A stretch of DNA of 64,000 bases from assembly GCF_009601705.1 (NCBI RefSeq), contig NZ_CP045687.1, positions 1,772,001 through 1,836,000 of the forward strand, read 5' to 3'. The translations under genes and the position numbers were made by a program. Positions 17,008 to 27,412 of this stretch are shown piece after piece. Under the pieces are notes generated by a model. That model was not told the DNA's origin, ran no database searches, and was given only the letters and a program-made list of their open reading frames with translations. Position 1 is the stretch's first letter, and every line of letters begins with the position of its first letter. This DNA comes from Sulfolobus sp. E5-1-F (lineage in GTDB: Archaea > Thermoproteota > Thermoprotei_A > Sulfolobales > Sulfolobaceae).

Positions 17008-18594
17008 ATGGCATGGGACATCGTATTAACCGCGGATAAAGGATCTTTCACAGACTATGGGGGTTCCAGTGTATTGGGTTATGTAGCTTGTATGCCGTCA
17101 AGATTAGTACCTAAATTCTTTATGGACAGATTCTTCACACCGGATGTCCCAGTGGATTCTGAAGGGAGAGCAATAATAGCGCCATACGCTCTTAGAAAAG
17201 TAGAGAGTATTCTTGTTCATGCAGGATTCGATAGCGTTGCAGTAGTACCTCCACACAGGCTAGAGAAGGCAATAAACCAGAATACTAAAGTGATAGGATT
17301 AACAGTCCATGATCCCTTGGGCTTAAATCCAGTTAGCTTTAAGTTAAGTATGATATTTGGAGGCGGTCCTACATGGACCGCCAAATATTTTGACGAATTT
17401 AGCGAAAAAATCTCGAAGCTTAAGTCAAAGTATAATTTTAAAGTAATAGTAGGTGGGCCAGGAAGCTGGGAATTAACCAAAGAGAAAGTGGATTGGGCAG
17501 ATGTTATATTTATAGGAGAAGCTGAAGTAGATTTACCACGAATTGTGAAATCCATACTTGATGGACAAGAAGTTCCTAAGATTGTCTATGGCAAGAATCC
17601 AAAAGTAAATGAAATACCACCAATAATAAATCCTGCAAGATTAGGGGAAGTTCAGATAACCAGAGGATGTCCAAGAGGATGCCAATTCTGTCCAATAACC
17701 CCTGAGACTTTTAGAACTATACCATTGGACGTTGTGAAGAAGGAGGTCGAAGTCAACATGCGAGCTGGGATAAAGAGAGTTGAGTTCATAACTGATGATG
17801 TTCTACTATACGGTTCACAGAAATTAAAGGTAAATCATGAAGCTATTACAAAGTTGTTCACCGAAACCATGAATATGGGAGTAGATGGAATATGGTTTCC
17901 ACATATCTCTGCCCCAGCCGTTAGAAGTAGTCCGCAAACAGTAAAGGCTATGTCTGAGATAGCAAGATATGATGAGGATAGGGCTGCAGCTCCAGTAGTT
18001 GGACTTGAGAGTGGAAGTGAAAAGATACTTAGTAAGTACATGAGAGCCAAGCCTTTCCCTTGGACTCCACGAGAATGGAAGGATGTTATACTTGATGCAA
18101 CTGCAATAATGAACGATAATTACATTTATCCTTGTTACACTATGACAATAGGTTATCCGGAAGAGACAAACGAAGATGTTGATCAATCAATTGATTTAGT
18201 TCAATCCATAATTGATCATAAACTTAAAGCTTGGATATTTCCGTTGCCTGTCATACCTATGGGGGTTTCTTATATTAGAAATAATCCATTTCCAATGTTA
18301 GAAAAAATGCCAACTAGATATTGGGATCTACTATACATATCGTGGAAATACGATTTACAGATAACGAGAGAAATGATACCAATTCTCACTGGTGGTATTA
18401 AGAACAAATTTGCTCAAAGGACTGTCCAATATATGATAGATAAAATATTCGATAGCATTGAATGGGTATTTAAACAACTAAAAGAGACACAAGGAAAATA
18501 CGCATATACTTTCGCAAATATTAATCTTAATAACACGATGGGAGTGATAAAAGCGATCTACTGGCTATTCAGGCTAGCCTTTAAACCTCTTTAA
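17008..18594 (+). CDS. B12-binding-domain radical SAM protein
   Basis: 528 aa from the ATG at 17008. N-terminal cobalamin-binding-like Rossmann region (about 1-190, with 'KVIGLTVHDPLGL' and 'KVIVGGPGSWEL'), then a radical SAM domain with cluster cysteines C221, C225 and C228 in CPRGCQFCP, and a C-terminal region of about 150 residues. This is the family from which Sulfolobales enzymes acting on membrane tetraether lipids come (GDGT ring synthases Grs and calditol synthase), so lipid cyclisation is a reasonable hypothesis, not a demonstrated role. It stands alone between convergent and divergent genes. Confidence 0.85.
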   Translation: MAWDIVLTADKGSFTDYGGSSVLGYVACMPSRLVPKFFMDRFFTPDVPVDSEGRAIIAPYALRKVESILVHAGFDSVAVVPPHRLEKAINQNTKVIGLTVHDPLGLNPVSFKLSMIFGGGPTWTAKYFDEFSEKISKLKSKYNFKVIVGGPGSWELTKEKVDWADVIFIGEAEVDLPRIVKSILDGQEVPKIVYGKNPKVNEIPPIINPARLGEVQITRGCPRGCQFCPITPETFRTIPLDVVKKEVEVNMRAGIKRVEFITDDVLLYGSQKLKVNHEAITKLFTETMNMGVDGIWFPHISAPAVRSSPQTVKAMSEIARYDEDRAAAPVVGLESGSEKILSKYMRAKPFPWTPREWKDVILDATAIMNDNYIYPCYTMTIGYPEETNEDVDQSIDLVQSIIDHKLKAWIFPLPVIPMGVSYIRNNPFPMLEKMPTRYWDLLYISWKYDLQITREMIPILTGGIKNKFAQRTVQYMIDKIFDSIEWVFKQLKETQGKYAYTFANINLNNTMGVIKAIYWLFRLAFKPL

Positions 18595-20039
18595 TTTTTT
18601 TCCACTGTTGCATCCGAAATATTCTTCCAAACAATTTTATAACCTAAATAATCTATAACATCAACTATGTAATTTCCGTATTTTTTTACTAATGAAGAAA
18701 GTTGTGTATTTGAGAAATCTTCCTTTTTTAACTCTTCTATAAATGATTTCTTTATAGCGTAATTTTTTAGTACTATATAGTCTGATCTTTGCATCAACTT
18801 GCTTCTAATTACCTTTTCATCCACATTATACCTGGTTGATAATTCCTTAATCAAGATAATATCATCATTGATACCGCTCAAGTCGACATCCTCATTGATA
18901 TTTGCTTGAAAGTTTCTTAAAGCTGAATATAGTTTAACTATATCAACTTTTTTCTTAAATTTTATTACATTTAAAGTATCCGGTATATAGTTTTCATATG
19001 AAAGCTCTTCATTCAAGAGAACTAAAATAGGATATTTGAAGTTTCTAAGTTTCTCTAGCTTAGAATTTACATATTCTTTAGTCCAAAATCCCATTATCTC
19101 TACGTATACCTTAATATTGCCTTTACTGAGTACAAAATCCGGAAAATAGAGTCTTTTTTCTATCACTATAGGTTCAGGTTCCCTTACTATACTCCAATCC
19201 CTTATGACCCTTCTAAACTCCTCGTAGAACTTTTCCTCAATTGAACTATCAAATCTTTTCTCTATCTCTTGATCATTAATATACTTAAAAAGTTTAGAAT
19301 AACTACTGGAGAGTTCTAGCCTATAAGTTCTTCTTTTATTTTTGCCTAAAACTATATCAGCTATAATGGTCCACTTATTCTTAGAGACTAAAAACGGTAC
19401 TAGCGCAGCCAAATTTCTCCCATATTTTTCTGTCATCTTTACTAAGGATAATGGGCCAAAAATCTCTATTCTAAGTGGATTTTCATATGCTAAATACATT
19501 AATCCTAACATTTTTATTCTTCTAGCGATTTCTCTCCAGCCTTCACTAACTGAAACTGTGACCTTATACGCATTGAAAATAATGGTTTGTAAAAGGGAAA
19601 GATTGTAGATCTTTAATAGATCTTCAGGAGAAAATTTAGGGAGTTCTACTATTTTCTTTTCAACGTCAAGATCCTCATACATTACCTTTATGGGATCAAC
19701 ATGAAAAATGCTACTGACCTCTTTTAATATTTTCTCCTTAGTATTTTCCTCTAATGCTGGACCCCTACTAAATAATTGCCTACGCAATTCTATATAATCA
19801 ATCTTAGTCTCACTCTCAACTGTACAATATCTTAGATAAATTTTACCTAATCCCTTTACTAATTTATAATCATATATCTTAGATAAATATTTTAAATCTT
19901 CTAACACATCACCTACTTTTGCTCCTATTTTAAACATATTAATGACTTCCTTTGCTACATCTATGTCAGAGTCTGTAGCAAATAGCGGAATTATCCTTTG
20001 ATTTTCTATCTTAAACCTAGCCAGATCAGAGGTTAGCAT
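18591..20039 (-). CDS. bax1: Bax1-type nuclease, XPB partner (DUF790)
   Basis: 482 aa. Bax1 binds the archaeal XPB helicase and has structure-specific endonuclease activity in DNA repair. The opening 'MLTSDLARFKIENQRIIPLF' and the helical middle are typical of DUF790. A restriction-type nuclease core is visible at 'YFPDFVLSKGNIKVYVEIMGFW' (about 300-320): PD, then E-x-M-G-F-W, the Bax1 variant of PD-(D/E)xK. It overlaps the xpb gene by 14 bp, so both are made together. The 3' end overlaps the radical SAM gene by 4 bp. Confidence 0.92.
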   Translation of the reverse strand: MLTSDLARFKIENQRIIPLFATDSDIDVAKEVINMFKIGAKVGDVLEDLKYLSKIYDYKLVKGLGKIYLRYCTVESETKIDYIELRRQLFSRGPALEENTKEKILKEVSSIFHVDPIKVMYEDLDVEKKIVELPKFSPEDLLKIYNLSLLQTIIFNAYKVTVSVSEGWREIARRIKMLGLMYLAYENPLRIEIFGPLSLVKMTEKYGRNLAALVPFLVSKNKWTIIADIVLGKNKRRTYRLELSSSYSKLFKYINDQEIEKRFDSSIEEKFYEEFRRVIRDWSIVREPEPIVIEKRLYFPDFVLSKGNIKVYVEIMGFWTKEYVNSKLEKLRNFKYPILVLLNEELSYENYIPDTLNVIKFKKKVDIVKLYSALRNFQANINEDVDLSGINDDIILIKELSTRYNVDEKVIRSKLMQRSDYIVLKNYAIKKSFIEELKKEDFSNTQLSSLVKKYGNYIVDVIDYLGYKIVWKNISDATVEKN

Positions 20040-21360
20040 TTTGCCTTCGCCTTTTACTTAAATTATAATCACTAGTACCTTTAGTTATTATTTCTATCAG
20101 TCTAGCTTTTTTATTTTCTTTCTTCCTTAAGATTCTACCCAACCTCTGTATGAATTGCCTAGACGTTCCATAACCTCCTAAAACTATGGCAACAGAAGCA
20201 TCTGGAACGTCAATACCTTCATCAAGAACACTAGAAGTTACTATTACATTGTATTTTCCAGATCTAAATTTCTCAAGAATCTCTATTCTTTCTTGCTTAT
20301 TAGTCTTATATGTAATTGCAGGAATTAAGAATAGTCTTGATATTTCGTATGCCATCGACGTATTTCTAGTGAATATTATAATTTTCTCTCCATTTAGCTC
20401 CGTGAGTAAGTCTTTTAGCTTCTCTAACTTTGCTTTCGAATTTACAGCGATTTTAAGAGCTTCATGCCATGCTAATAACGCCTCTCTAGCTTCCTTATCC
20501 TTAGCTGCTAGCTTAATTAATTTGTTGAAATCATTCAACGATTTTAACTCAAGATTGCGTTGAGATAGAAATTTCTTTAGGATTCCTCTATAGTGCCTAT
20601 ATAATTTTTCTTCATCTTCAGTGAGATTTACATATATACGTTGGATTTCAAAATTTGAAAGATATTTCCCGACTAAGTTAGACACTGTGATCCTATACAC
20701 TATAGGCCCTACTAGTGAGGGATATAATTTATGCCTTCCGTCACTTCTTTCCGGCGTAGCAGTCAAACCTAATCTGTATGGTGCTGCTAAACCTTGAGCT
20801 ATTATGGAATATCCCTCTGAAGGTAGATGATGAACTTCATCAAAAATTACTAATCCAAACTTGTTTCCTATTTTCTCTAGCTGGGTATACGCTGAATCAT
20901 ATGTAATTACAGTTATTCCTTTAAGTTCATCATATCCTCCTCCTATCCTTCCTGCCTCAACTCCAAGTAACTCTTTTATATTTTCATACCATTGCTGTAA
21001 TAAATCGATTGTAGGTACTACTATTAATGTTGCGAGCCTAACCAGAGCTATGGCCTTTAATCCTATTACAGTTTTTCCACCTCCAGTGGGAATCACTATT
21101 ATGCCAAGCTTACTCTTTAGCCATGTGTTCAAAGCCTCTCGCTGATATTCCCTTAATCTTATTCGATCTAAAATCAAAGGAAAAGGTAATAATTCTAGAA
21201 CGTTATCCTCTACTTCAACATGAGATCTCTTGAAGTAAGAAAGGACTTCTCGATACTTATTCGCTTGCCCTATATAACACTTAAACTCATCATTCCAAGT
21301 TAAACCGGGAGCTGAAAAATCAGACAGTAATAAACCTTTAAAATATCGTAATCGTACCAC
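20026..21360 (-). CDS. xpb: XPB-family DNA helicase
   Basis: 444 aa. Superfamily 2 3'-5' helicase of nucleotide excision repair. Motif I PTGGGKT (about 91-97), motif II DEVHH (about 178-182; XPB has DEVH), motif III LTATPER, an RED-like region in 'TPERSDGRHKL', a thumb-like insert (about 250-300) and motif VI 'QFIQRLGRILR' (about 405-415). The short N-terminal damage-recognition domain precedes 'LREYQREAL'. First gene of the xpb-bax1 unit. Confidence 0.95.
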   Translation of the reverse strand: MVRLRYFKGLLLSDFSAPGLTWNDEFKCYIGQANKYREVLSYFKRSHVEVEDNVLELLPFPLILDRIRLREYQREALNTWLKSKLGIIVIPTGGGKTVIGLKAIALVRLATLIVVPTIDLLQQWYENIKELLGVEAGRIGGGYDELKGITVITYDSAYTQLEKIGNKFGLVIFDEVHHLPSEGYSIIAQGLAAPYRLGLTATPERSDGRHKLYPSLVGPIVYRITVSNLVGKYLSNFEIQRIYVNLTEDEEKLYRHYRGILKKFLSQRNLELKSLNDFNKLIKLAAKDKEAREALLAWHEALKIAVNSKAKLEKLKDLLTELNGEKIIIFTRNTSMAYEISRLFLIPAITYKTNKQERIEILEKFRSGKYNVIVTSSVLDEGIDVPDASVAIVLGGYGTSRQFIQRLGRILRKKENKKARLIEIITKGTSDYNLSKRRRQNANL

Positions 21361-21439: not shown

Positions 21440-22531
21440 ATGAAAGGTGCAATATTGTATAAATATAATGAACCATTAATTATTGAAGATAATATTCAAA
21501 TAGATAAACCTAAGGCTGGTGAAATCAAAATTAGAATTGAAGCAACTGGCCTATGTCATTCAGATGTAAACGTATTTGAGGGAAAAACCCCGGTCCCTCC
21601 ACCAGTTATTGCAGGACATGAAATATCTGGTATTGTGGAGGAGGTAGGAGATAACGTCACGGAGTTTAAACCTGGCGATAGAGTTATATCAGCATTTATC
21701 CATCCTTGTGGTAAATGTAAAAATTGTATCATGGGAAATGAGAATTTATGCGAAGTTTTTGCAAAAAACCGACTAAACGGAACATTACTAGATGGTACTA
21801 CTAGATTACACTTTAGGGATGGTACTCCAATAAGGGCATTTTTAGGAGGAGGATTTGCAGAATATGTAATAGTACCTCATACTGCGCTCACTAAAGTTCC
21901 AGAAGATTTAGATTTGAAAAAGGTTGCAGTATTGGGTTGTGCGGGCTTAACTGCTTATGGTGCTGTAAATTCAGCTAGAATAGAACCTGGTGAAACAGTT
22001 GCTGTAATTGGAGTTGGCGGTGTTGGATTGTCTGTAATACAGATGTTAAAGATCGCTGGTGCAGGCAGAATAATAGCAATTGGGACTAGAAAATGGAAAT
22101 TAGAAAAAGCGTTAGAACTAGGGGCTAGTGATGTAGTTAACTCTAAGGAGACTGATGTTATTAGAGCAGTCAAGAATATAACCGGTGGGGGACCTGATGT
22201 TGTAATAGAGATAGCAGGGACTACCGAAACAGTGAAAATGTCTTTAGATATGGTTAGAATAGGAGGAAAGGTAGTACTAGTAGGATTACCTCCAACTACT
22301 GCTGAAATTCCAATTAGAATAGCAAGTATAGTTAGAGGAGGTATTAAAATTATAGGAGACTATGGTGGGAGGCCCAGAGTGGATATGCCTAGACTTATTG
22401 AGCTTGTAAGATTGGGAAAATATGACCCTAATGCATTAGTTACAGGGAAATTTAGATTAGAAGAAATTAACGAGGCAGTAAAATTATTAGAGCAAGGAGA
22501 GGCAATAAGAAGTTTAATAATTCCTAATTAA
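21440..22531 (+). CDS. Zinc-dependent medium-chain alcohol dehydrogenase
   Basis: 363 aa from the ATG at 21440. Catalytic zinc ligands: Cys in 'GLCHSDV' (about 36), His/Glu in 'GHEISG' (about 61). Structural zinc: four cysteines in [15 protein letters not shown] (about 91-105). NAD(P) site GVGGVGLS (about 187-194). Oxidises alcohols or reduces aldehydes; substrate unknown. The ORF could open at 21416, but that adds a hydrophobic MLILYLIL not found in the family, and a TATA-like TTTAAATATGC precedes 21420. Ends 4 bp inside the convergent DUF131-like gene. Confidence 0.9.
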
Positions 22532-22809
22532 AATGGAGCTCTGGCAGTTTTTCTTCCAATTATAAACATTATTAAATAAATAATTAACATTATTATGGTA
22601 AATACAACACCAACTATAATTAGGTTACTTAAGACTGATGGTGGGACATTGCCAAATGCTATTGGAATTGGCCCTAATAACACTAATCCTGCGAATTGCG
22701 GAGAAGATGAAGTAGTTGTCTGTGGAGTTTGAACTTGTGATACCACACCTAGGAAGAGTAGAATGAAACCAAGAAATATTAATGTGAGACCAGCCGCAAT
22801 TAACTTCAT
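22528..22809 (-). CDS. TIGR00304/DUF131 small membrane protein
   Basis: 93 aa with two membrane helices (about 4-25 and 60-85). The central '[14 protein letters not shown]' is the signature of this archaeal family of unknown role. The segment between helices is Thr/Ser/Gln-rich. It is transcribed alone, divergent from the SelB-like gene. Confidence 0.8.
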
Positions 22810-22859: not shown

Positions 22860-23765
22860 ATGTATTATGGGAGTGTAATTACAGTCTTATCGTCAGATAA
22901 GAATAAAGTGACTGAGATTGCTGAAAAATTAGGTAAACTTCATGAAACCGCCAATACTAAAATATATTATCGAAAAAAAGGTGAATATATCAGATCAATC
23001 CTATTAACTACAGAGTATCCAGAAAAAATTATAGATCTAGCTGAAGCATTATCGCTTTCGTCCACTGCGATATTATATATACCAGAAACTTTAACGTGGA
23101 TGGATGGAGAACTAGCACTTCTAATTGATTCTCTAAATACACATAATAAAATAGTAATATCTAACCTAGATAGAGGTAAAATAAATAATATTTTAAGTTC
23201 TTTAAGCTCCTTTATTAAATTCGAACTATACAATGATATTTCCGACTTAAGCGAGACGAAAGAGGAGGACAAGGGAATAGTTTATGTAGATAGAGTATTT
23301 ACAGTCAAAGGTGTTGGAACTGTAGTTACTGGATTCTCATTTACAAATGTTGAAACTCATGATAAATTGGTAGCGTTACCTTATAATAAGGAGGTTGAAA
23401 TAAAGAGTATTCAAGTTTTAGATGAGGATCAAAAAAGTGTTTCGACTGGAATTAGGGTAGGGTTTGCTCTGAAAAACGTAAAAGAAGAGGAAATAGAAGA
23501 TTTAATGTATTTGGTTAAGCCAAATGTTAAGGTTACAAAAGAAATAGAAGGACAAATAACTAATTACAAATGGTCCACTATAAATCAAGGGCAAAATCAC
23601 ATAATAGTTAAGGGTCATGCAATAAGTGTTAATATAAAAATCGATAATCAAAAAGCTAAGATTATTTCATCTGTTCCAATACCTATCGTTGAAAATAGGA
23701 TACCCATCTTAAACGTTAACGTAAGACAAGGAAAACCAAGAGTATCTGGGTATATTAATTTATAA
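22860..23765 (+). CDS. SelB-like / EF-Tu-related protein lacking GTPase motifs
   Basis: 301 aa. The second half is a translation-factor domain II/III: 'VDRVFTVKGVGTVVTGF' at about 141-157 is the domain II signature of SelB and EF-Tu, followed by beta-barrel strands. The first ~130 residues occupy the place of the G domain and keep an alpha/beta pattern, but there is no GxxxxGKS, no DxxG and no NKxD. It therefore cannot bind GTP in the normal way. Sulfolobales do not use selenocysteine, so a reassigned role in translation or RNA binding is likely. Followed 15 bp later by a small gene. Confidence 0.8.
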   Translation: MYYGSVITVLSSDKNKVTEIAEKLGKLHETANTKIYYRKKGEYIRSILLTTEYPEKIIDLAEALSLSSTAILYIPETLTWMDGELALLIDSLNTHNKIVISNLDRGKINNILSSLSSFIKFELYNDISDLSETKEEDKGIVYVDRVFTVKGVGTVVTGFSFTNVETHDKLVALPYNKEVEIKSIQVLDEDQKSVSTGIRVGFALKNVKEEEIEDLMYLVKPNVKVTKEIEGQITNYKWSTINQGQNHIIVKGHAISVNIKIDNQKAKIISSVPIPIVENRIPILNVNVRQGKPRVSGYINL

Positions 23766-23780
23766 GTTAATTACTATAAT

Positions 23781-24044
23781 ATGGAAAACGCAATTTTAGC
23801 TGCATATAAGAAGGCGAAGGAACTAAATAATGATGGTGAAGTTCACCTTTTTAAAGATGAAAACGGTGCATACTATCTAGTCATAGTTAGAACGGCTAAT
23901 TGCAAAGAAAAGTCTAAACTAATAGATGCAATCTACGATGAGGTATACAAATATACTAACGAGACTAACCTTATAATTCTAATTATGTCTAAGAGTGCTT
24001 ACAAGGCCTTTGCTGATCAAAATTTAGAAGAAATAGAAGTATAG
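23781..24044 (+). CDS. Hypothetical protein, 87 aa, downstream of the SelB-like gene
   Basis: Not recognised. Compact alpha/beta pattern with one helix at 1-16, strands around 'EVHLFKDENGAYYLVIVRTA' and 'LIILIMSKSAYKAF'. One Cys. Probably co-transcribed with the SelB-like gene (15-bp gap) and ends one base before the convergent HerA-like gene. No motif for catalysis. Confidence 0.65.
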   Translation: MENAILAAYKKAKELNNDGEVHLFKDENGAYYLVIVRTANCKEKSKLIDAIYDEVYKYTNETNLIILIMSKSAYKAFADQNLEEIEV

Positions 24045-25793
24045 TCATAACTTACTTATTTTATCTTTTAATAAATCTAGATTATTTTCCGCTGCAAAGA
24101 ATACTGGGACATCATGAGGGAGAGCCGATTTGAAGCTTACTAATAACCATTGTCCTGGTTCCAGTTCTAGAGTCTTATCTAAGAGCATATCGCTTATCCC
24201 AAAAGTTTCGGCCAATAACTGTCTATCGTAAGGCCTAGGAAGCGTACTTATGAAGTAAGAGTGTAGTTGTTGTAGTGCGTTAGTGTTTAGATAAGCTAAT
24301 CTTTGAGTACTTATGAGAGAGTGTAAATGATACTTTCTTCCATGTCTAAGTAATTTCTCTATGGCAGTGCTTGAAGCTTCACTTTTATCTTTTTGTTTGG
24401 TATCGTAAGGTATAAACTCTTGAGCTTCATCGATTACGAATAGTACTTTAGGATTGTCAGAATACATTCTCTTTCTCCTATTGTAGATTTGATTAATTAC
24501 AGTCGCAACTACTTGCCTTCCCTCCTCTAGGTTAGGGAGTTCTAAAATGAATAATCTAGGTGAGTCCTTGGAAGAGTCTAAAATTTCTATTGCTAAATTT
24601 TCTATATCATAATCTTCAGTTTCTCTAATACCAAGTGAGATGTATGCTCTTATACCAGATATAAATGTAAACAGTGACGAATTCTCCTTTAAATGTGCAT
24701 CTTTCCCTAAATTTTCTATTTCATCCAGTAGCTTGTTAATAGAGTCATCTATGATATCATCTACTGTTAGTTTTCTTTCTCTCATGAAATTATCTAACTT
24801 ACTTAGAAAAGTGTAAAATAGTGGTTTCTGGGATATAGCAGTATATTTATCTTCTATTTGCTTTTTGACTAGATCTATTAAATCAGCATAAGTTAAGTAG
24901 GAAAAACCTTCAGGTGGAACATATAACTGTTTCATTTTTTCATTTTGATGTAAAATTTCTGCACCTTTTTTTATCTTATCTCTAATATCTATAATATCAT
25001 CAGGGATCACGTGACTTCTTAAAAATTTTCTACTCGCATCAACTGGATTGGGAGGAACTCTATCTAAGCTTACGACTCTAGATGGAACTTCAAGCAACTT
25101 ATCTAAGAGAAGTATTGCATACTCCATTGATACATCAAATATTACAACTTTAGTGTCGGGTATGTTATCTAATACTTTTCTCGCTATTAAGGACGCTAAA
25201 TTTGATTTACCAGAACCCGTAAAGGCGAAAATTCCTAGGTGGTACTTTATTGCTTTTTCTAGATTTATTTCTAGAGAAAGTTCTTCATGTAGAATGTTTC
25301 CTAAACTTATATTACTATTTGCACAGACAAATGATGCATATGCCTTTTTATTCAAAATCTTAACAGAGGAACCCAATAAAGGTGGGAAATATCCTTTTTT
25401 GAATTGAATATTATTCGAATTCACTTCAAGAATATATCCTAAGGGATAAGTTATTGAATCTATCCATATTTCTTTCTCATCTTTCGAATACCAACTTTCA
25501 CTAACTTTTTTCATGATTTCATTTCTAATCTCCTTAGGTATTGTAGAGTCCAGATTTATCATACCATAGTGCATTGGAATAATATCCGCAACTTCTAAAA
25601 TCAGATAGCTATTTTCCTTTATTGTATTTACAGCAAGCAATTTTCCTATACCTAATTTATCCTTTAGCGAGAAGGGAAATTCTACTATATAATTTCTAAA
25701 AGATATTGTACCCCTGCCATCAGATGTTTGTCTAGTTATTATTTTGGCTTCTCTTAGTTTTCCCTCTTCTTCTTCAAAAATACTTTCCATCAT
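24045..25793 (-). CDS. HerA/FtsK-like hexameric ATPase
   Basis: 582 aa. N-terminal HAS-barrel-like region (about 1-120), then the HerA ATPase core with Walker A '[12 protein letters not shown]' (about 189-200), Walker B '[11 protein letters not shown]' (about 449-459), sensor-like '[10 protein letters not shown]' and a C-terminal arginine-containing '[11 protein letters not shown]'. HerA translocates DNA and works with NurA in end resection. It overlaps the NurA-like gene by 20 bp. It is longer than the ~500-aa HerA of the Mre11-Rad50 operon, which is not in this window, so this is probably a paralogue. Confidence 0.87.
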
Positions 25794-26526
25794 TTCTTAA
25801 TCTCTCAATCCAACTTCTAAATTCTCTGTATCTAATATTACTTTGCAGACTGTTGAGAGTTAATAACTTGCTTAATTTATTTCTGTAATATTTCACTAAC
25901 TTATCTGCTAAAAATAATGGATAATTATACCCTAAGCTTTCTGGTATTGATTCCTTAGCTAGATTATATATTAGGTAAAGCAATTCTTCTTGATTTTCTA
26001 CAAAAACTTGAGACTCTATGTAGAATACCCACGAGAATGGGAACAGTTTAAAATATCCATAAATCATATCACCATGTTTTTCAGTAATTATTAGCCAAGG
26101 AGGATTTTCTATTTTATTCAGAGTTTCCCTTTTTACTATATCAAAATCCTTTACAATTCCGATGGAATTTTTAGGAACAGAAATACCTAAAGATTTGTCG
26201 AATGATAGTTTCCTATCGAAAAATATTAAATCAACTTCATTTTCTTTCATACTGGAGTATTCTAGTTCTCTCATCCTCTTTTCTGCTTCACAAATACATA
26301 GCTCGTCATTAACTGAAATATCCTCTATAGTAAATTTGAAATCCTTAAATATTCTACCTTTGACTATGCCTATTACTATATATGCTCCCTTATTTCCTTC
26401 CAAAATAATGTCAGAGAAGGTTCCATCAATTGCAGCAAACGTTAACTCTCTATTCAGAAAGTAATTTTTGTCTGATCTCAATCTTACTATTGTGCTAAAA
26501 TCACCACTATCAATGTTTGATGACAT
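25774..26526 (-). CDS. NurA-like 5'-3' nuclease
   Basis: 250 aa from the ATG at 26526. The metal-binding aspartate is in 'AAIDGTFSD' (Asp34), the NurA DGS-type motif, and the C-terminal '[17 protein letters not shown]' matches the NurA ending. NurA is a manganese-dependent nuclease that acts with HerA. A longer reading frame opens at 26793 but that extension is antisense to the thiR coding region and Cys/Ser-rich, so I rejected it. The chosen start overlaps the start of thiR by 14 bp on the other strand, which is unusual. Confidence 0.82.
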
Positions 26527-27412
26527 ATTCATACCATCAATTAGAGTATTAGAGGCTAAAAGACTTAGGGAACTACATATGAGCCAAACAAGGATTGCTA
26601 ATCTTTTAGGAGTAAGCCAACCAGCAGTAAAACAATACTTAGATGAAGACGAAAATTCGTATATTAAAAGATTACAGAATTTGGGACTAACACATGAGGA
26701 AATAGAAGATTTTCTGGATAAACTTACACAATTACTGATGAATGGTGATTCTAAACAAGTAATGCAATATATCAGTATGTTTTTCCTTTCCAATCTAGGT
26801 AGGCTAAAATTCTGTAAATATCACAAAATGGTTGATAGTGAAATTCCAGTTGATTGTGATATTTGTAAGAGTCTATACAAAGAGAATGAAGAAGAAATGA
26901 TGGAACTTGCACTATCACTGCTTCAAAACGAGTCTGTAGCGGAATTAATCCCAGAAGTTTTGAGCAATTTAGCCTTTGCAAAAGCTAACGCTAAGAAGGA
27001 AGAAGATGTACTTGCAATTCCAGGGAGAATAACTAAAATTAGAAACTTACCAACACCCGCCTCTAAACCGATGTGGGGAGGAAGTAAACATTTAGCAAAG
27101 GTACTATTATCAGTGATGAAAAATCATCCCACTGTGAGATCGGTTATGAATATCAAGTATAATGAGAAAGTGGAAATGGTATTGAAGGAAATTGGTTATA
27201 AATTTAAGAAAGTAGGTCCTCAGAACGATATAGGTAATGATAGAATAGCTGAAACAATAGCCACAGTATTTGATGAAGGTACAGATGCGGTAATACATTT
27301 AGGCGGTACTGGTATTGAGGCCAACACTTACGTTTTTGGCAAAGATCCGTTAGAAGTTGTAAGGAAGATCATAAATATTGCAGTTAGGTATAAAGAAATT
27401 TCCTCGCCTTAA
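26513..27412 (+). CDS. thiR: Thiamin-pathway transcriptional regulator, HTH-ThiN (ThiR-like)
   Basis: 299 aa from the ATG at 26513. N-terminal HTH with '[20 protein letters not shown]' (about 25-44), a middle region with a small cysteine cluster (CKYH..CDIC, about 105-125), and a C-terminal ThiN domain starting near 'VLAIPGRITKIRNLPTPASKP' and including 'MWGGSKHLA', 'GNDRIAETI' and 'VIHLGGTGIE'. In archaea this HTH-ThiN fusion binds thiamin phosphate and represses thiamin genes, while free ThiN or ThiD-ThiN are enzymes. thi4, a plausible target, is at 49722. The last 29 bp overlap the MMPL gene. Confidence 0.87.
   Translation: MFDDIFIPSIRVLEAKRLRELHMSQTRIANLLGVSQPAVKQYLDEDENSYIKRLQNLGLTHEEIEDFLDKLTQLLMNGDSKQVMQYISMFFLSNLGRLKFCKYHKMVDSEIPVDCDICKSLYKENEEEMMELALSLLQNESVAELIPEVLSNLAFAKANAKKEEDVLAIPGRITKIRNLPTPASKPMWGGSKHLAKVLLSVMKNHPTVRSVMNIKYNEKVEMVLKEIGYKFKKVGPQNDIGNDRIAETIATVFDEGTDAVIHLGGTGIEANTYVFGKDPLEVVRKIINIAVRYKEISSP

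Follow-up and report, generated by a model that had tools for sequence, protein, structure and literature searches.

Sulfolobus sp. E5-1-F encodes an aSelBL protein (also called EF-Pyl or aEF-X), an ancient paralog of the selenocysteine elongation factor. Alignment and modeling indicate that the fold of its G domain persists without a nucleotide site. Judging from sequence, aSelBLs of one well-supported clade that includes the Sulfolobaceae have kept the tRNA 3'-end and aminoacyl pocket and have lost the arginine that corresponds to the 5'-phosphate contact of EF-Tu. Taken with the predicted structure and the analogy to a studied relative, the most likely role of aSelBL would be that of a nucleotide-independent binder of the aminoacyl-tRNA end.

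Much of this is already known. The family, its ruined G domain, and its reading as a protein kept for another use were published in 2011 (PMC3037878), and our observation and interpretation are thus a rediscovery. The loss of the residue equivalent to EF-Tu Arg300, together with wider sampling, is a modest addition; the point does not appear in the available portions of PMC3037878 or PMC4329189.

Identity of the protein

The gene lies in the window, that is, the whole 64,000-nucleotide stretch of DNA that was analyzed (Table 1). Its open reading frame runs from ATG to TAA, as described earlier, and a GGTGA motif stands immediately 5' of the ATG. The host genome (2.54 Mb) is archaeal, and its aSelBL is closest to Sulfolobaceae loci.

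Table 1. Features of the aSelBL locus, in window coordinates
Feature	Residues	Coordinates	Strand	Basis or remark
aSelBL gene	301 aa	22860..23765	+	Orthologs in 31/31 Sulfolobaceae; profile, tree, fold
G-domain-like region	1-125	22860..23234	+	No G1, G3, or G4 motif; aligned to MM1309 G domain
Former P-loop site, VLSSDKNKVT	9-18	22884..22913	+	Modeled 3-residue turn before helix 14-24
Aromatic "lid" above aminoacyl pocket	Y36-Y37	22965..22970	+	Y/F36 and Y37 in 22/22 Sulfolobaceae
Glu of translational-GTPase "GEH" helix	E84	23109..23111	+	Invariant, 52/52 in the 52-homolog alignment
Domain II (beta barrel)	139-213	23274..23498	+	TIGR00475, PDB profile search, model, fold match
Putative aminoacyl-pocket residues	D144, R145	23289..23294	+	D144 = aSelB Asp191, invariant; R145 at aSelB His192, R/K in Sulfolobaceae
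Domain II segment VKGVGTV	149-155	23304..23324	+	V149 and V155 predicted to line the tRNA A76 pocket
Putative aminoacyl-pocket residue	R199	23454..23456	+	= aSelB Arg247 / MM1309 Arg234; 22/22 Sulfolobaceae, 50/52 overall
Site of MM1309 Arg249 / EF-Tu Arg300	D214	23499..23501	+	Basic residue lost in clade
Domain III (beta barrel)	217-301	23508..23762	+	Model, fold match; no C-terminal SECIS-type extension
87-aa protein		23781..24044	+	Probably co-transcribed with aSelBL here; no constant partner
DUF131/TIGR00304 membrane protein		22528..22809	-	Divergent from aSelBL; Pfam and NCBIfam models
XPB-type helicase and DUF790 protein		18591..21360	-	In tandem
HerA-type ATPase (DUF87), then NurA-domain protein		24045..26460	-	Apparently a HerA-NurA-like pair
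Helix-turn-helix (by appearance) and ThiN protein		26468..27412	+	Probably a thiamine-responsive regulator

The SelB- or EF-Tu-type domain II recognized by the sequence-only reading, with VDRVFTVKGVGTVVTGF, is confirmed. Specifically, the selB model TIGR00475 matches residues 126-252 (E 3.5e-15), models of EF-1 alpha/EF-Tu match more weakly, and Pfam GTP_EFTU_D2 gives only 18.2 bits, under its cut-off of 30.3. With a profile built from euryarchaeal-type aSelBLs only, residues 18-256 of the window protein score 119 bits; the host EF1A and aGTPBP-like protein reach 72 and 62 bits, nearly all of them from domain II. Because the match covers residues 18-256, the link to aSelBL spans the G-like region and not domain II alone. 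A profile search of the PDB returns M. mazei MM1309 (3wnb) as the best match, end to end (1.9e-58); aSelB matches at 6e-36. In a tree of 52 aSelBLs, built without an outgroup, the window protein falls within a 23-row clade (support 100/99).

Several features that define aSelBL are present. The closest sequence relatives, over domains II and III and the G-like region, are aSelBLs; G1, G3, and G4 are disrupted within a retained GTPase fold; and there is no C-terminal SECIS-recognition extension, residue 301 being the end of the last domain III strand and aSelB aligning only up to about its residue 376. The equivalents of aSelB Asp191 and Arg247 are kept (D144 and R199, 22/22), and His192 is lost in Sulfolobales (R or K at position 145, 22/22). 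The family is also marked by a G domain 15 residues shorter than that of aSelB through a deletion; the G-like region of the window protein is short, about 125 aa. The window protein is not a SelB, which would have working GTPase motifs and would co-occur with selD and tRNA-Sec; the motifs are missing from the protein and the companions from the host genome. Nor is it an active translational GTPase, as it has no P-loop, no DxxG with a catalytic His, and no NKxD. It does have the translational GTPase fold, a G domain plus two beta barrels in the EF-Tu arrangement (Z 23-29 over 289-298 aligned residues against SelB, aIF2gamma, EF1A, and EF-Tu).

The name aSelBL goes back to Atkinson, Hauryliuk, and Tenson (2011), whose Table 1 places the protein in S. 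islandicus, S. solfataricus, S. acidocaldarius, S. tokodaii, and Metallosphaera sedula (PMC3037878). The available text of that paper describes domains II and III as intact and the G motifs as ruined, with no SECIS domain and with an aminoacyl pocket that is conserved except for the loss of His192 in Sulfolobales. It also reports that most aSelBL carriers lack Sec machinery, and it argues that aSelBL keeps aminoacyl-tRNA and ribosome binding. A search of openly available papers returned nothing after 2015 on aSelBL, EF-Pyl, or aEF-X, and a search of main article texts returned no usable S. islandicus essentiality data. The translation factor of a 2025 M. acetivorans ribosome-dimer paper was considered as a candidate aSelBL and rejected; that factor is aEF2.

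A G-domain fold without a nucleotide site

As the sequence-only reading had claimed for the N-terminal third, GxxxxGK[ST], DxxG, and [NT]KxD are absent from residues 1-130 of the window protein. GxxxxGK[ST], in strict or relaxed form, occurs in 0/30 Sulfolobaceae orthologs, and the few DxxG or [NT]KxD strings found among these 30 never align with G3 or G4. Because the orthologs likewise lack the motifs, the loss is a property of the whole family and not of one odd gene.

An AlphaFold2 model of the window protein, built with 52 archaeal homologs, has three domains (pLDDT 95.3, pTM 0.92). VIA-align ranks 3wnb (MM1309) first (Z 29.3, rmsd 2.7, 294 residues), with aIF2gamma (3pen, Z 26.3) and SelB (4acb, Z 25.9) next, at Z about 26. 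Foldseek rates the similarity of the model to GTP-form EF-Tu (1exm, 1ob2, 5we6) at a TM-score of about 0.73-0.74 and to the GDP-form 1d8t at about 0.46, so the model has a closed, GTP-like arrangement, bearing in mind that AlphaFold favors closed states and models no ligand. In the DSSP assignment, a three-residue turn separates the first strand (residues 3-10) from a helix that begins at residue 14, and thus the model leaves no room for a P-loop. The P-loop columns vary freely among 22 Sulfolobaceae.

The sequence-only reading had named a full G domain in a predicted structure as a result that would refute it, and the outcome divides in two: the model shows the fold, but not the nucleotide site. 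The nucleotide motifs are gone, as that reading said. Where it needs correction, the alignment of residues 1-125 with the G domains of aSelBL and aSelB, the invariant E84, and the model all indicate that the fold is retained. K26, like E84, is invariant in this region (52/52), and we infer that packing or ligand shaping accounts for both residues better than nucleotide binding does.

These features bear on whether aSelBL is a divergent molecular switch that still binds or uses GTP or another nucleotide via an unrecognized site. Atkinson et al. raised the possibility (PMC3037878), MM1309 binds GTP with an Arg replacing the P-loop Lys (PMC4329189), and purifying selection on the G-like region is strong. 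We nonetheless regard such a switch as highly improbable, given P-loop columns that are unconserved in Sulfolobaceae, a modeled loop of three residues, the lack of any aligned conserved motif at G3 or G4, and a conserved old switch I region that, with K26 and E84, better fits domain packing.

Conservation and distribution

The aSelBL gene is present in all 31 Sulfolobaceae genomes searched. Comparison with relatives of 91% identity gives dN/dS values of 0.06-0.07 for the G-like region and 0.11 for domain II; with those of 75% and 68% identity, the G-like region comes to about 0.10-0.14, with dS near saturation. aSelBL is thus under purifying selection, and because dN/dS is low there too, the dead GTPase region is still needed. 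Pseudogenization or decay was rejected on the strength of full-length conservation and dN/dS.

The selD and selB models give no match over cut-off in the host genome. The best matches to tRNA-Sec fall under the gathering score, and the top three are tRNA-Ser. A remnant of a Sec system was therefore rejected as an explanation. The sequence-only reading was right that the lineage lacks a selenocysteine system and that a SelB relative has been kept for another use.

In the genome collection, 253 loci with an aSelBL relative were confirmed, and the best 80 of the 253 were retained; these carry almost exclusively archaeal titles, and one (L084) is labeled as a bacterial MAG. In a 300-genome sample of the phylum, strong full-length matches came from the Sulfolobaceae, from three genomes in another family of the order, and from some Thermoproteota families; the other sampled families of the order yielded none. 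Many of the weaker matches counted there reflect domain II of common translation factors and not aSelBL. The named loci nearest the Sulfolobaceae aSelBLs include Caldisphaera, an Acidilobaceae MAG, Vulcanisaeta, and Caldivirga. All are known acidophiles, and we offer as a suggestion that this group of relatives is linked to acidophily.

A conserved 3'-end pocket and a lost 5'-end contact

Residue roles were mapped by combining alignment with the MM1309 docking paper (PMC4329189), not by superposing a tRNA complex. The residues placed in this way near A76 and the aminoacyl group are conserved. V149 and V155, whose pocket role is taken from PMC4329189, are present in 52/52 aSelBLs, as are D144 and F147; Q185 is present in 22/22 Sulfolobaceae. 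The aromatic lid over the pocket is described in PMC3037878. Because the pocket residues are invariant, the "RNA or ribosome binding" of the sequence-only reading can be narrowed, provisionally, to binding of the aminoacyl-CCA end of tRNA.

The opposite pattern holds at the 5' end. EF-Tu Arg300 contacts the tRNA 5'-phosphate (PMC4329189). The equivalent site is R in 19/19 euryarchaeal-type aSelBLs and R or K in 9/10 of the Nitrososphaeria type. All 22 Sulfolobaceae carry D, G, or E there, and the 14 further rows that group with them carry D, G, A, or M. In the tree lacking an outgroup, the 23-row clade takes in all rows without a basic residue except L070, which lies outside it. Where EF-Tu has Lys90, Sulfolobaceae aSelBLs have a hydrophobic residue.

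The clade lacking the 5'-phosphate arginine also has members in Acidilobaceae/Caldisphaera and in Conexivisphaerales-type Nitrososphaeria (related loci L054, L055-L060, L062, L064-L069, and L071). Many are acidophiles. Neither of these two groups appears in the 2011 aSelBL table (PMC3037878).

Two further readings draw on the same residues. One is that aSelBL is a ribosome- or subunit-binding factor, active for example in stress, hibernation, or subunit quality control, whose domain II docks on the small subunit and which no longer handles charged tRNA. Clade-wide loss of the 5'-phosphate arginine alongside an invariant domain II would suit such a factor, as would the 16S rRNA contacts of EF-Tu domain II, reported to be conserved in aSelBL (PMC3037878). 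We consider it a serious but unlikely account: ribosome docking alone would not need D144, R199, and the aromatic lid, all of them invariant or nearly so, and a small sample of the Sulfolobus hibernation literature contains no report of aSelBL on ribosomes. The other reading, a tRNA-processing or tRNA-storage protein outside translation that recognizes, for instance, uncharged CCA ends or tRNA fragments, strikes us as quite improbable. It is consistent with a CCA-end pocket kept and 5'-phosphate recognition lost, but aSelBL also keeps a positively charged aminoacyl pocket (D144, R/K145, R199), suggesting a role for the amino acid.

Gene neighborhood

The 87-aa protein encoded next to aSelBL had been put forward for a co-occurrence check, and the result goes against a partnership. 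The protein is found in 26/31 Sulfolobaceae and in 0/85 sampled genomes of the order outside the family; 5/31 Sulfolobaceae have aSelBL without it. Its gene adjoins aSelBL in only 10 of the 26, on the same strand in 7 (the window's genus only) and convergently in 3 (one other genus), and lies elsewhere in the genome in the remaining 16. A constant partnership was rejected on these counts. The 87-aa protein has no Pfam match and no informative NCBIfam match (the best is BREX-5 PglX, E 0.017). Its model, built from two sequences (pLDDT 90), resembles the minimal nucleotidyltransferase 1ylq (Z 9.5, 82 residues) and also RsfS/iojap ribosome-silencing proteins (Z 7.3-8.5); by eye, the GS and DxD catalytic residues of nucleotidyltransferases seem absent.

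No conserved operon was found either: only the divergent DUF131/TIGR00304 gene recurs, upstream of aSelBL at 21/52 loci that are not all independent genomes, many of them Sulfolobaceae. Neither this gene nor the 87-aa gene argues for a fixed functional partner, and no conserved neighbor pointing to tRNA or cysteine metabolism was found around aSelBL loci.

Other neighbors in the window are recorded here as observations. The HerA-NurA-like pair scores far under the NCBI cut-off for known HerA equivalogs, and in Aramenus (L052) and L053, too, a HerA homolog stands close to aSelBL. The helicase-DUF790 tandem looks like the archaeal XPB-Bax1 pair. In the ThiN protein, the helix-turn-helix-like part is N-terminal and the ThiN domain C-terminal.

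Proposed role

Sequence and model show aSelBL with the three-domain EF-Tu/SelB fold, a G domain that keeps its shape without a nucleotide site, and an invariant aminoacyl-CCA pocket in domain II. We propose the following mechanism. Even with no nucleotide bound, the protein would always remain in the closed, "GTP-like" conformation. It would bind a charged tRNA by its aminoacylated 3' end, and analogy to MM1309 makes Cys-tRNACys the most likely one. Bound in this way, it could shield the aminoacyl bond or the thiol, or pass the tRNA on without GTP hydrolysis. Because the EF-Tu 5'-phosphate arginine is gone from the clade, the tRNA would be held otherwise than in the EF-Tu ternary complex, and probably more weakly.

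Taken whole, this account of a nucleotide-free, closed aSelBL on the aminoacyl-tRNA 3' end has, in our judgment, a little less than an even chance of being right. Several points count against it. MM1309 binds GTP and keeps most of its P-loop, and its biochemistry may not carry over to the clade. Loss of the Arg300 and Lys90 equivalents speaks against ordinary tRNA binding, and no conserved neighbor gene links aSelBL to the metabolism of tRNA or cysteine. The Sulfolobales, moreover, are not rich in cysteine (PMC3037878).

We speculate, tentatively, that the same holds for a wider clade composed of Sulfolobaceae, Acidilobaceae, Vulcanisaeta/Caldivirga, and some Nitrososphaeria. There, aSelBL would use no nucleotide, ignore the tRNA 5' end, and hold only the aminoacyl-CCA end; its EF-Tu-like fold, once a GTP switch, would now serve as a fixed guard of aminoacyl-tRNA or as a ribosome factor. 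aSelBLs occur widely in archaea. Their Sulfolobaceae form, from a lineage some of whose members can be manipulated genetically, offers an extreme natural case in which to ask what such a fold could do without GTP. The residue pattern, 3' pocket kept and 5' contact lost, turns the question of its role into simple binding tests.

Comparison with known systems

The nearest studied protein is M. mazei MM1309 ("EF-Pyl"/aEF-X; PDB 2elf, 3wnb-3wnd), crystallized by Yanagisawa et al. in 2015 (PMC4329189). The available text reports that MM1309 has Arg in place of the P-loop Lys, yet binds GTP (Kd 0.43 uM) with undetectable hydrolysis; that its switch regions touch other domains and not the nucleotide; and that it binds Cys-tRNACys and shields it from hydrolysis (PMC4329189). 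The window protein resembles it in its predicted three-domain closed fold, its pocket residues, and its lack of a catalytic His. It differs in having no P-loop, whereas MM1309 keeps a P-loop-like segment, and in carrying Arg for MM1309 His179 and Asp for Arg249. The aSelBLs described in the 2011 paper (PMC3037878) belong to the same family and lineage as the window protein.

aSelB (4ac9, 4acb) shares domains II and III and the Asp/Arg pocket. Unlike aSelB, the window protein has no GTPase motifs and no C-terminal extension, and its host genome has no Sec machinery. Finally, the host's own aIF2gamma, EF1A, and aGTPBP are similar to it in overall fold and in domain II, but their GTPase motifs are intact. 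The window protein stands apart from the translation factors of its genome.
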